From positions 1,054,001-1,118,000 of the forward strand of contig NZ_CAMTTE010000001.1 of NCBI RefSeq assembly GCF_947077775.1: DNA of 64,000 nucleotides. Direction: 5' to 3'. Every line of letters starts with the position of its first letter. Positions within the stretch are counted from its first letter, which is position 1. A program made the translations under genes and the position numbers. The notes below the pieces were generated by a model. The model was not told the origin of the DNA, made no database searches, and saw only the letters and a program-made list of their open reading frames with translations. The DNA comes from Salinibacter pepae (GTDB lineage Bacteria; Bacteroidota; Rhodothermia; Rhodothermales; Salinibacteraceae). Below are positions 55,750-63,277 of the stretch, piece after piece.

Positions 55750-55775
55750 ACGTCAATACTGAGACCCCGTGACGT
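55750..55775 (+). promoter_or_regulatory. Inverted repeat ACGTCA-N14-TGACGT before antitoxin gene 1
   Basis: ACGTCA (55750-55755) and TGACGT (55770-55775) lie 17 bp before the antitoxin ATG. The same two half-sites with a 15-bp spacer stand before antitoxin gene 2, and both right half-sites extend to TGACGTACA. This suggests the operator bound by the ribbon-helix-helix antitoxins. Confidence 0.6.
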
Positions 55776-55792
55776 ACAATTCTGATCCCGCC

Positions 55793-56089
55793 ATGAAGTC
55801 CAAGCTCACCTTGCGCATGGACGAGGACGTGAAGGAGCGAGCCAAAGAGATCGCCCAAGAGCGCGGCACGTCCCTGTCGGCCCTCGTGGAGGGCTCCTTT
55901 CGCCTCCTGAGCGAGGCGGATGCGCCCAACGAGCAGGTCGGGGCCGGCACCGCGCTAACTCCTCAGTTGAAGAAGGTCCACGAACGGATCGGGCCGCCCC
56001 CAGACGACGCTCCGTTCGATGAACCAAGGGGCAATTGGACGGAGGACGAGCAACAGTTCATCAGGGCCGCCACCGAAAAGCACGCCTGA
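55793..56089 (+). CDS. VapB-like ribbon-helix-helix antitoxin (DUF6364 type), module 1
   Basis: 98 residues from ATG 55793. The N-terminus has the DNA-binding ribbon SKLTLRMDEDVKERAKEIAQ followed by the turn ERGTSLSALVEGSFRLL, the helix-turn-helix part of the RHH fold. The C-terminal half is acidic and would wrap the toxin. It is clearly related to the module-2 antitoxin (KSKLTLR-D-LKERAK-A-ERGTS pattern). Its own toxin gene, six bases downstream, is broken, so the antitoxin is now an orphan that might still bind the shared operator or neutralise the module-2 toxin. Confidence 0.82.
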   Translation: MKSKLTLRMDEDVKERAKEIAQERGTSLSALVEGSFRLLSEADAPNEQVGAGTALTPQLKKVHERIGPPPDDAPFDEPRGNWTEDEQQFIRAATEKHA

Positions 56090-56095
56090 TCGCCC

Positions 56096-56463
56096 GTGCG
56101 CCTCCCGTTCGACACGAACATCTTGATCGACGCCACCGTGCAGAGCCGTGCGCATTACGAGGGGGCCAATCAGATTCTGGTTCACGCCGAGCGGGGGGCA
56201 TTGACGGCATCGTCACCCCCACTGCAATTGCCACGTGCTGGTCCGTGTCGACGGCCACCTGCGAGGTCGATCCGCGTCCCCTCTTCGAGTATCTGTCGAC
56301 GGTCGTCGACCCTGCGCGGATGGGATGATCGGCCCTGTCCGATGCCCTAGAGGCGCCAAACGACGCGGACTTCGAGGACGAGTACATCGCCGCCGGCGGC
56401 GTGCAGGCGGGCGTCGAGGGCGTCGTGACGCGGAACCCGGACGATTTTCGGGACGGCCCGTGA
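56096..56463 (+). pseudogene. Broken PIN-domain (VapC-like) toxin gene, module 1
   Basis: Starts GTG at 56096 with LPFDTNILIDATVQSRAHYE, the PIN-domain first strand with catalytic Asp. The frame is lost at a run of six G (56193-56198); one extra G would restore it. The sequence continues in the next frame as GIDGIVTPTAIATCWSVSTA and DPRPLFEYLSTVVDPARMG, then hits TGA at 56326-56328, and goes on in the same frame as SALSDALEAPNDADFEDEYI and VTRNPDDF to 56463. The conceptual protein lines up along its length with the intact module-2 toxin. Two separate lesions mean it is dead, not merely a sequencing slip. Confidence 0.85.
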
Positions 56464-59284: not shown

Positions 59285-59345
59285 GAGTCGCGCCAGGCGC
59301 TGAACAGACCTTAAGTGAAGGAACGGCAAACTGAAGGCGCGTTAT

Positions 59346-59372
59346 ACGTCATTAAAATTCTCATATTGACGT
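59346..59372 (+). promoter_or_regulatory. Inverted repeat ACGTCA-N15-TGACGT before antitoxin gene 2
   Basis: ACGTCA at 59346-59351 and TGACGT at 59367-59372, ending 11 bp before the ATG, with an AT-rich spacer. Flanking bases extend the symmetry to TACGTCA/TGACGTA. It matches the half-sites upstream of antitoxin gene 1. Likely an autorepression site overlapping the promoter. Confidence 0.62.
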
Positions 59373-59383
59373 ACAGCAGGAAA

Positions 59384-59689
59384 ATGTCCACGAAATCAAA
59401 GCTTACCCTCCGTCTCGACGACCGCCTGAAAGAACGCGCCAAACGACTGGCCAAGGAGCGGGGGACCTCCGTCTCCCAAATCGTGGAAGACTACTTTCGC
59501 CTCCTGCTCCGCGAGCCGAACGGGGACGACTCCGGACCGGAGTCGGCGTCCGATATGAACACCGTTCCCGACGATCTTCCGCCCCGCACCCGCAAAATGG
59601 TGGACGCGCTCGGCCCGGCGGCGACGGACCTAAACCTCGACAAAGATACGGAGGCCTGGGTCGACGCGATGCACGAGAAGCACAAGTAG
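59384..59689 (+). CDS. VapB-like ribbon-helix-helix antitoxin (DUF6364 type), module 2
   Basis: 101 residues from ATG 59384; the frame is open upstream but that part covers the operator. RHH N-terminus STKSKLTLRLDDRLKERAKR, turn KERGTSVSQIVEDYFRLLL, then an acidic linker (NGDDSGPESASD) and a C-terminal helix TEAWVDAMHEKHK that resembles the end of the module-1 antitoxin (IRAATEKHA). It neutralises the PIN toxin 39 bp downstream and probably represses its own promoter. It sits 99 nt after cas3. Confidence 0.87.
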   Translation: MSTKSKLTLRLDDRLKERAKRLAKERGTSVSQIVEDYFRLLLREPNGDDSGPESASDMNTVPDDLPPRTRKMVDALGPAATDLNLDKDTEAWVDAMHEKHK

Positions 59690-59728
59690 ATCGAACGGCC
59701 CCTCGTCACGGACGCCCATTTTCCCGGC

Positions 59729-60142
59729 ATGACGGTTCTCTTCGACACGAACGTCCTCATTGATGCCGCTGTCGCCTCCCGGTCGCATCACGGCGCAGCC
59801 GTCCGTCTGATCGCGGCGGCCGAGCGCGACACCATCGACGGCCTCGTTGCCCCCACGTCAATCGCGACTTGGTGGTACGTGGCATACGAACGGGAAGACA
59901 CCGAACCACGTCCGCTTTTCGACCTGCTGGCGGACGTGATGCGCATTGCTCCTATGGGCCGCTCGGCGCTCCGGACGGCACTTCAGAACCCTGGAACCGA
60001 CGTCTTTGAAGACGGCTACCTTGCCGCTGCCGGGGCGGCGGCCGGCGCTTCGGCCGTCGCGACGCGAAACGAATCCGACTTCACGTCAACGGCCCTCACC
60101 CCCTATCATCCTCTCGATCTTGTGGGGATGCTTAACTGTTAG
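59729..60142 (+). CDS. PIN-domain ribonuclease toxin (VapC-like), module 2
   Basis: 137 residues. PIN fold: TVLFDTNVLIDAAVASRSHH with catalytic Asp6, TIDGLVAPTSIATWWYVAYE, then VFEDGYLAAAGAAAGASAVA with the central acidic pair and ATRNESDFTSTALTPYHPLD with the last acidic residue. All acidic positions of the Mg-dependent site seem present, so it should be an active ribonuclease (tRNA or rRNA cleaving in known VapCs). It is encoded after its antitoxin with a short gap, inside the CRISPR-Cas operon. Confidence 0.87.
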   Translation: MTVLFDTNVLIDAAVASRSHHGAAVRLIAAAERDTIDGLVAPTSIATWWYVAYEREDTEPRPLFDLLADVMRIAPMGRSALRTALQNPGTDVFEDGYLAAAGAAAGASAVATRNESDFTSTALTPYHPLDLVGMLNC

Positions 60143-60954: not shown

Positions 60955-62475
60955 ATGAAGCACTCACTTCTCGACGACCCGCTCCTCCGGATCCGCCTGC
61001 TGGACAATACGGTGCAGGGAGCGTCCCTGCCACGGGTCCTGCATCGACTCACGCAGAACGACATTCTGAGCTTCGAGGCCCTACAGGCCCATCAGCAGCA
61101 GCCCTGGCACAGCTTCCTCGTCCAGCTCGCCGCGATGGCCGTCGCCCGACAGGCCGGCGGCACGCGTCCGGACACCGCAGCCGGGTGGCGCGACGCGCTC
61201 GTGGGAGTGGCCGACGGCGACGCCGCGGCCTGGCACCTGGTCGTGGCGGATGAGTCGAAGCCCGCCTTCTTGCAGTCGCCCGTGCCAGAAGGATCGCTCG
61301 ACGACGCCGGGTACAAGGCCGACGTGCCCACGCCCGACCAGCTCGACGTGCTCATTACGTCGAAGAGCCACGACGTCAAGGCGCGCCGCATCCGGCACCC
61401 CGAGCCCGAGCACTGGATCTACGCACTCGTGACGCTGCAGACGATGGAGGGCTTCCTGGGGCGGGGCAATTATGGAGTCGTGAGAATGAACGGGGGTTTT
61501 GGAAACCGGCCCCTCGTAGGCCTGTCGCCGGACCTGTCCTGGGGAGAGCATTTCCGGCGCGACGTAGACGTGCTGTTGAGCGAGCGCGACGCTCTGTCCG
61601 GGCGATACACACTCGATGGGCCGGCCCTGCTCTGGACCCGGCCGTGGGACGGGGCCAAAGACAGGGCCATTCCGCTTGCCGACTGCGATCCCTACTTTCT
61701 CGAAATCTGTCGCCGCATCCGGTTTCAGAAGGACGGTGGCGACCTCACCTGCTGGCGGGCCAACACCAAGGGCCAGCGCGTCGACGCGCCCGACTCGCTC
61801 AACGGCGACACCGGCGATCCCTGGACGCCGATCGAGAAAAGCAGCGGCAAGGCCCTGACGCTGCCGGGGGAGGGCTTTACCTACGACCGGCTGCAAGACA
61901 TCGTCTTCGAGGGCGAGTACGCTCAGCCCCCGGCGCTGCAGTTCCGGGATTCGGACGGCGGGTACATGTACGTCGTTGCCCGGGCACTGGTGCGCGGACA
62001 AGGCAAGACCGAAGGCCTGCACCACCGCATCGTACCCGTTCCTGATTCGGCATCCGGCTGGCTCCGAGAAAAATCTCGACGCGAACGACTCGGGGAGCGC
62101 GCCCGAGACCGGGTCGAGATCGTGGACGAGGTGCGCCGCACGGTGCTCTACCCGGCCATCGGCACGCTGCTGGGCGGCGGCGACACCGAGGCCATTGAGT
62201 TTGACGATGTATCGCCCTGGCTCGACGCCTTCGACCGCACCGTGGATGCCCGCTTCTTCGAGGCGCTCTGGGCGTCGGTCGACATGAGCGACCGCGAGGC
62301 CCGCGAGCACTGGGAATCGCTGCTCTGGAAGGAGGCCCAAACCCAGTTCAACGACGCCGAAGACCACGCCCCCAACTCCTCCACCCGCTACTGGCGGGCC
62401 CGCAGCAGCGCCCGCTCCATCTTCCACGGCGCCGCCCGCGACACCCTCAAGTACGCCTTTTCTGATACATCGTAG
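60955..62475 (+). CDS. cse1: Type I-E Cascade large subunit Cse1 (CasA/Cas8e)
   Basis: 506 residues from ATG 60955; the usual Cse1 length. Seen: the N-terminal LPRVLHRLTQNDILSFEALQ with QQQPWHSFLVQLAAMA (the Cse1 'N..L..L..L' opening), WIYALVTLQTMEGFLGRGNY and GVVRMNGGFGNRPLVGL, LLWTRPWDG, and a C-terminal helical bundle (about 380-500) ending YWRARSSARSIFHGAARDTL. It recognises the PAM and seeds Cas3 recruitment. It is first of the Cascade genes, followed by cse2 across an odd inverted-repeat gap. Confidence 0.92.
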   Translation: MKHSLLDDPLLRIRLLDNTVQGASLPRVLHRLTQNDILSFEALQAHQQQPWHSFLVQLAAMAVARQAGGTRPDTAAGWRDALVGVADGDAAAWHLVVADESKPAFLQSPVPEGSLDDAGYKADVPTPDQLDVLITSKSHDVKARRIRHPEPEHWIYALVTLQTMEGFLGRGNYGVVRMNGGFGNRPLVGLSPDLSWGEHFRRDVDVLLSERDALSGRYTLDGPALLWTRPWDGAKDRAIPLADCDPYFLEICRRIRFQKDGGDLTCWRANTKGQRVDAPDSLNGDTGDPWTPIEKSSGKALTLPGEGFTYDRLQDIVFEGEYAQPPALQFRDSDGGYMYVVARALVRGQGKTEGLHHRIVPVPDSASGWLREKSRRERLGERARDRVEIVDEVRRTVLYPAIGTLLGGGDTEAIEFDDVSPWLDAFDRTVDARFFEALWASVDMSDREAREHWESLLWKEAQTQFNDAEDHAPNSSTRYWRARSSARSIFHGAARDTLKYAFSDTS

Positions 62476-62492
62476 AAGTTGCCATCCGGCTT

Positions 62493-62671
62493 TGAAGAAA
62501 TCGGTGTCTTGGAGGCGCCGAGGGCGCAACGATCGAAATTCGCCCTGTTCGAGCGCTCTGACCGATGGGAAGAGCGCGAGTTTGGCGAATTTCAGTGCAG
62601 CCTGAGAAGCCTCAACCGATTTCTTCACAGCCTTGACCTTTTCGTCCATTTTGGGTCAAGCCAAAATGGAC
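62493..62671. repeat. Nested inverted repeat plus hairpin between cse1 and cse2
   Basis: Outer arms TGAAGAAATCGGT (62493-62505) and ACCGATTTCTTCA (62615-62627) are perfect, as are GAAATTCGCC (62535-62544)/GGCGAATTTC (62584-62593) and CGCTCT/AGAGCG (62554/62571), forming one 135-bp fold. A second perfect 11-bp hairpin GTCCATTTTGG/CCAAAATGGAC follows (62644-62654/62661-62671). Small frames cross this area on both strands but show no family. MITE-like or regulatory. Confidence 0.7.
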
Positions 62672-62707
62672 ACCTCCTTTCGATCTAGTGGTAATCCCTT
62701 CAGACTC

Positions 62708-63277
62708 ATGCCCCCTTCTGCCGATACAGACAGTCCCCCCGAGACTGACATCAGCACCGACGAGTCAACCTCCCCCTCCCAGGCCGTCGGCCGCGCCGCC
62801 GGCATGCTCCACCCCGAAACCGGACGCCTGCCCAACGGCGACCGCGCCGCCCTCCGCCGCATCGACCTGGATACGCCCGTCACGCCCACCCTCTGGAAAG
62901 TGCTATTCGACCTGGAGCAGGACGAATCCAGGGGAATGTCCCAAACGAAATGGGAGCAACGCTGGGCCACACTCCTGATGGGCATGGCCCACTGCGCGGG
63001 CCTGCACGACTACGATATGCCCCTTGGGCAGGCGCTGGCCGAGGCCGGCTGGGCCGAAACCCGATTCGTGCGCCTGATGGAGGCCGACGACGAGACGCTG
63101 CCGGTCCTCCTCCGCCGCATGGCCCAGTACCTCGCCAGCAAACAGCAACCCGCCAACTGGGAGCACGTGCGAGAGCTTCTTTTCTCTCGGGAAAACCTGT
63201 TTGAGGACGCAGAAAACGTACGACTCAAAATCGCACGCACCTACTACCGCACCCTCCACGCTCAGGACGACGACTGA
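62708..63277 (+). CDS. cse2: Type I-E Cascade small subunit Cse2 (CasB)
   Basis: 189 residues from ATG 62708. All-helical with the family blocks TGRLPNGDRAALRRIDLDTP and VTPTLWKVLFDLEQDESRG, then AGWAETRFVRLMEADDETLP with LLRRMAQYLASKQQPANW. It forms the dimeric belly of Cascade that stabilises the R-loop. The N-terminal 25 residues are Pro/Ser/Asp-rich and acidic. It follows the inverted repeat and lies 51 bp before cas7. Confidence 0.9.
   Translation: MPPSADTDSPPETDISTDESTSPSQAVGRAAGMLHPETGRLPNGDRAALRRIDLDTPVTPTLWKVLFDLEQDESRGMSQTKWEQRWATLLMGMAHCAGLHDYDMPLGQALAEAGWAETRFVRLMEADDETLPVLLRRMAQYLASKQQPANWEHVRELLFSRENLFEDAENVRLKIARTYYRTLHAQDDD

Follow-up and report, generated by a model that had tools for sequence, protein, structure and literature searches.

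A folding element located between the cse1 and cse2 genes of Salinibacter pepae is one copy of an interspersed repeat whose copies are dispersed, share a common fold with covarying helices, are present or absent at orthologous sites and have no linked gene. The explanation that we regard as probable is that of a phylum-wide, non-autonomous and structure-conserved repeat, which would be mobilised in trans, recognised through its fold as single-stranded DNA (ssDNA) and corrected in its arms. A bolder proposal, made tentatively and with somewhat less than even confidence, is that these repeats might constitute an unnamed class of mobile elements extending over the phylum, in which pseudoknotted ssDNA is recognised in trans and the arms are corrected within the strand and not by stepwise selection. 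If so, many Bacteroidota genomes, both gut and environmental, would carry a conserved pseudoknotted DNA fold that is absent from Rfam, and structure-guided DNA mobility would gain a new model.

The element in the cse1-cse2 gap

In the window (the whole stretch of 64,000 nucleotides that was analysed), cse1/casA (60955..62475) and cse2/casB (62708..63277) are the upstream and downstream neighbours of the element on the plus strand, both with NCBIfam matches above the cut-off (TIGR02547 and TIGR02548, respectively), and they are separated by 232 bp (cse1 end at 62475, cse2 start at 62708). The element occupies positions 62488..62673 on the minus strand, antisense to the cas operon, and comprises about 185 bases with the 5' end at 62673 and the 3' end (AAAGCC) at 62488, these ends being set from the family profile and the ortholog alignment. 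As anticipated in the original prediction, the gap contains strongly folding inverted repeats: a repeat search located outer arms at 62488-62505 and 62615-62632 (18 nt, 94% complementary) and inner arms at 62535-62557 and 62571-62593 (23 nt, 74% complementary), and this folding was equalled on neither strand by any of 200 dinucleotide shuffles (z -5.8 and -4.9). The perfect 11-bp hairpin expected before cse2 was also found, with arms at 62661-62671 and 62644-62654 and a 6-nt loop at 62655-62660 (CTTGAC on the minus strand); this hairpin, P1, is supported by the repeat search and by covariation. The inverted repeat and this second hairpin had been taken for separate units; both are real, but they form one minus-strand element, joined by a pseudoknot in which the loop pairs with 62632-62637 (GTCAAG), as indicated by the conservation of a Y-R pair and by a compensatory change between the cse1-cse2 orthologs. 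The P2 arm (62488..62632, minus strand) is closed by a helix of 62615-62632 with 62488-62505, supported by three compensatory pairs among four orthologs, and the inner helix P3 (62584-62593 with 62535-62544, within 62535..62593, minus strand) bears the internal loop AAACTC...CTCRRACA. Just past the element, the plus strand reads CACCTCCTTTC (window 62672-62683), which resembles the 3' end of 16S rRNA and is absent from two of the orthologs (G012 and G005).

A dispersed family

A search of the genome for further copies, proposed as a check together with the original prediction, was positive: BLAST matches the element at two places besides cse1-cse2 (three in total), and R1, a covariance model of P1 plus the loop-partner stretch, finds five copies. 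A single-copy Cascade device is ruled out by this membership of a dispersed family. Among related genomes, BLAST matches were obtained in 18 of 41, including 12 of the 13 genomes of the genus Salinibacter (own genome counted), and of 247 genomes sampled across the phylum R1 detected copies in 78, the R1 counts being lower bounds with at most 25 candidates scored per genome. The pattern formed by the loop and its partner was matched a single time in the window, against no match in 100 shuffles. In a collection of species genomes it matched at least 119 stretches; among the 119 matches listed, 110 belong to Bacteroidota in the wide sense (counted from titles), the rest including Desulfobacterota, Deltaproteobacteria, Calditrichaeota, Moraxella, SR1 and two Williamsia MAG contigs. 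Plasmid copies exist in Parabacteroides, Aureibacter and Ilyobacter, with partial matches in Persicobacter and Sulfurovum. With regard to phages, no match was obtained among 50,697 phage records, and seven viral contigs matched the pattern, three of them lacking P1 and looking like chance.

Some copies show additional features. For example, in a locus of Parabacteroides distasonis (L373:2966-3000) a full copy is accompanied by a repeat of the 22 initial bases of the element, with a 6-bp spacer; this repeat, missing from two sister loci, is perhaps the trace of an abortive event. Another example is the presence, in some copies of the genus Salinibacter, of small palindromes inside the helices (e.g., around GACGAGCGTAGCGACTC and GGGATGACCC), which make up a second tier of mini-repeats (L028, L030, L038, L043, L048 and L061, near position 1000-1250).

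A shared pseudoknotted fold

The copies follow a common plan, which in the minus-strand sense consists of the P1 hairpin, an A-rich link, the stretch complementary to the loop, and a long interrupted arm closing with AAGGCC. In the pseudoknot, the P1 loop CTTGAY pairs with RTCAAG just downstream, and this pairing is present in 45 of 45 diverse copies. In every one of 156 pattern matches, the final base of the loop forms either a T-A (106) or a C-G (50) pair, even though the search pattern permitted mixed loop/partner pairs. A third version, CTTGAA with TTCAAG, has been found in Parabacteroides and Ilyobacter copies; and L289 and L375 are among the few copies with an altered loop and a shorter partner match, which speaks against a strict rule.

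The helices also covary. In the 45 diverse copies, the variable pairs of P1 change on both sides, and only one G-U and 14 unpaired cases were counted in 437 cells. With offsets chosen in favour of Watson-Crick pairs, and with G-T and A-C handled equally, P2 beyond the fifth pair gave 978 Watson-Crick, 21 G-T, 55 A-C and 206 other cells (90 of 98 copies alignable), some of the latter being fixed internal loops, and P3 gave 324 Watson-Crick, 0 G-T, 5 A-C and 22 other in the 40 of 113 copies that hold its internal-loop motif as written. Certain non-canonical positions are conserved, i.e., position 4 of P2 is T.G in 76 of 98 copies, position 5 is G.A in 52 of 98, and the foot of P3 has a conserved T.G in the Salinibacter-genus alignment. 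Among 13 copies of this genus, 20 of 46 pairs are compensatory, the L039 row of this alignment, which is without its 3' half, being entered as gaps. Finally, 13 copies of a single genome, G030, have different flanks and crisp borders in common, and one of their P1 pairs is either C-G or T-A, matched in all of them.

Single-stranded DNA or RNA

RNA helices normally drift through G-U pairs. In this family, almost every pair is of the Watson-Crick type, and G-T is no more frequent than A-C. This favours an element that folds as ssDNA and not as RNA. The element may be mobilised in trans by an enzyme that would recognise the ssDNA fold, hairpin and pseudoknot together, and mismatches in the folded strand would be corrected against the partner arm, from which near-pure Watson-Crick double changes would follow. 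It is from the matched C-G and T-A versions in G030 that we infer this folded-strand correction.

An unlikely alternative is that of a structured non-coding or ribozyme-like RNA, whose gene would be multicopy and mobile and whose fold would be selected in the RNA. The pseudoknot with its A-rich link, the conserved internal loops and the conserved T.G positions look RNA-like, the T.G of P2 position 4 and of the P3 foot and the G.A of P2 position 5 could be RNA-type motifs, and the bare element folds strongly as RNA (z -6.9; -7.0 as DNA). However, changed pairs show fewer G-U than A-C, the copies have no uniform orientation relative to genes (among 43 co-directional cases, 18 are sense and 25 antisense), no conserved promoter-like sequence was found ahead of P1 in 113 copies, and no Rfam family matched above the gathering threshold. 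The existence of near-identical copies with matched arm changes makes the DNA-versus-RNA question directly testable.

Mobility and genomic neighbours

The presence of the element varies at orthologous sites. In a syntenic gap of the genus (seven species resolved of 13 genomes searched), it is present in G000, G007 and G009, absent from G003, G004 and G005, and replaced in G008; the exact borders of solo insertions are not fixed because the empty sites are too diverged. Flanks differ from copy to copy, and an ORF is overlapped by only three of 78 elements. The 75 elements lying between two genes comprise 25 convergent, 43 co-directional and 7 divergent cases, versus 78, 402 and 77, respectively, in a baseline of 557 gene pairs.

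Regarding a possible partner gene, none linked to the element was found by ORF clustering, by Pfam searches of the flanks or by a search for genes in the arm. The neighbours are random, since 150 flanking proteins match 173 Pfam families, the commonest of which occurs in four. IS110 recombinase, whose gene would adjoin the element if this were an IS110 bridge RNA, is not among the 25 commonest. In the same way, no recurring neighbour family emerged when 941 ORFs from the scan loci were clustered, with none in more than six loci, and the largest cluster consisted of small ORFs at Edaphocola copies. No gene inside the arm, as expected of an autonomous version, was detected in the 231 distinct 5' cores examined: 135 have a near partner, 94 have none at that threshold, and the two with a far partner only are at loci that both hold a second copy. 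Same-orientation tandem arrays exist, with no clear genes between the copies. A variant copy on the Aureibacter plasmid pAT2 (L375:1565-2660) lies immediately upstream of a tandem pair of tyrosine recombinase genes.

Relation to known repeat systems

The element shares properties with several known systems. The attC sites of integrons conserve fold more than sequence, have Watson-Crick arms with fixed unpaired bases and are thought to act as ssDNA. The element resembles them in its fold over sequence, its Watson-Crick arms and its putative ssDNA nature; in contrast, it shows no apparent link to an integrase and no cassettes between tandem copies, and it has an extra hairpin and the pseudoknot. 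Insertion sequences of the IS200/IS605 type show a lagging-strand bias, whereas for the element none was seen by eye in four closed genomes, which counts against the trans-mobilised ssDNA reading. The REP, BIME and REPIN repeats of RAYT are also short, intergenic, dispersed, palindromic and thought to be moved in trans. However, they have the foot GT[AG]G, whereas the element has no conserved bases ahead of P1 in 113 copies and its P1 foot varies with P1 length; they have a cognate Y1 gene, whereas the element has no linked Y1 and occurs where Y1 is absent; and a REP is a hairpin of 21-65 nt (PMC6006769), versus about 180 nt with a pseudoknot.

The literature searched contained no description of the element. 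The nearest printed statement is that atypical structures, present in additional copies elsewhere in the genome, flank the TnpA_REP genes of subclass 2.6 in Bacteroidetes (PMC6006769). We weighed, as a rather improbable reading, a REP-like element of this TnpA_REP/RAYT subclass, mobilised by its HuH enzyme. The likeness lies in the occurrence in Bacteroidetes and in the copies elsewhere in the genome; the structures are described as weaker and gene-flanking, and are set apart from the element by description only (PMC6006769). A Y1 gene is present in 28 of 30 high-copy genomes versus 19 of 41 relatives, but none of the 28 Y1 loci examined in relatives has a copy next to the gene according to R1, and in high-copy genomes strong R1 matches occur at one of 29 Y1 loci. 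A second Y1 set, which shares some genes with the 29-locus set, gave three of 20 loci, one of them about 10 kb off and picked for its known copy. Besides, in L290 the Y1 gene that lies between copies bears other hairpins of its own right at its ends, and G000, G265 and G273 carry copies without any Y1 match. Because the R1 model is not generally found beside Y1 genes, the element was not filed under subclass 2.6.

The copy in the cas operon

The comparison of cse1-cse2 gaps, likewise suggested with the original prediction, places the element in G000, G006, G012 and G005, where synteny extends over 2 kb, and shows it to be missing from nine other loci in which cse1 and cse2 adjoin (gaps estimated at -34 to 62 bp); at the seven more distant of the 20 loci no motif was seen, these loci not being resolved. 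The copy would have been inserted before the four Salinibacter-genus lineages split and then stayed. In the four orthologs, 12 of 52 pairs vary, with eight Watson-Crick double changes, two changes to G-T and two broken pairs, and the covariation score was matched by one of 500 shuffles. These double changes indicate that the fold has been kept since insertion, although selection, conversion from other copies and folded-strand correction cannot be separated as causes. The G000 and G006 copies of the element share 95.7% identity, more than the end of cse1 (86.0%) or cse2 (87.9%), which could mean a local function; between G000 and G012 or G005 the element is 79% or 77% identical, below the genes. 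A local effect on the cas mRNA is possible, probably small or tolerated, and any effect on Cse1:Cse2 would be secondary.

The original prediction had also considered a Cascade-specific RNA processing or attenuation device setting the Cse1:Cse2 ratio, which we find very unlikely and which gained support neither as the origin of the element nor as the function of the family. The compensatory changes maintained in the four orthologs and the marked folding of the strand that corresponds to the cas mRNA (z -5.8) would agree with it, as would a copy on the Aureibacter plasmid pAT6 (L376:2495-2680), also antisense, between the type I-D genes cas5d and cas7d, which is a second, independent insertion in a cas operon. 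However, the flanking genes of the family are unrelated, with no Cascade genes among the families listed for the 150 flanking proteins, nine relatives have cse1 adjacent to cse2 without the element, and no terminator-like site was found. Overall, the family has no link to cas genes. If the trans-mobilised repeat is the right reading, caution is needed, as insertions in cas operons can mimic regulatory elements. Elsewhere in this operon, between cas3 and cse1 (window 59315-60142), a small antitoxin-like ORF is followed by a PIN-domain ORF with a weak VapC-type match below the cut-off, and a similar-looking ORF pair is located ahead of cas3 (55769-56350).

Element borders and the Edaphocola units

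As for the suggestion that a MITE had landed in the operon, the landing of a mobile element stands, with copies elsewhere and relatives without it, but the classical MITE does not, since neither terminal inverted repeats nor clear target duplications were found at the element borders. Inverted 8-mers occur in the flanks of seven of 103 copies versus a shuffled mean of 7.2, and the same 103 copies show no 8-mer duplication and a weak 6-mer excess (14 versus 5.6, sd 2.9) at no fixed offset. That a DDE transposase moves the element as a classical MITE is hardly credible: MITEs are likewise non-autonomous, intergenic and multi-copy (one has reportedly been described in Porphyromonas gingivalis), and in Edaphocola the element lies inside a unit with inverted ends (ACTGAGTATCCGC/GCGGATAGTCAGT), 8-bp direct repeats that are exact in at least eight of 26 copies (by eye) and an empty site in a sister species, but these ends lie outside the shared element, the 103 other copies have neither inverted ends nor an 8-bp duplication, and the element has instead a conserved internal pseudoknot fold. 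These units number dozens in Edaphocola genomes and measure roughly 500 bp each, the element being enclosed by inverted ends of 13 bp, ACTGAGTATCCGC (e.g., L256:5539-6067); carriage within the larger unit has raised the copy number of the element in these bacteria to a high level.
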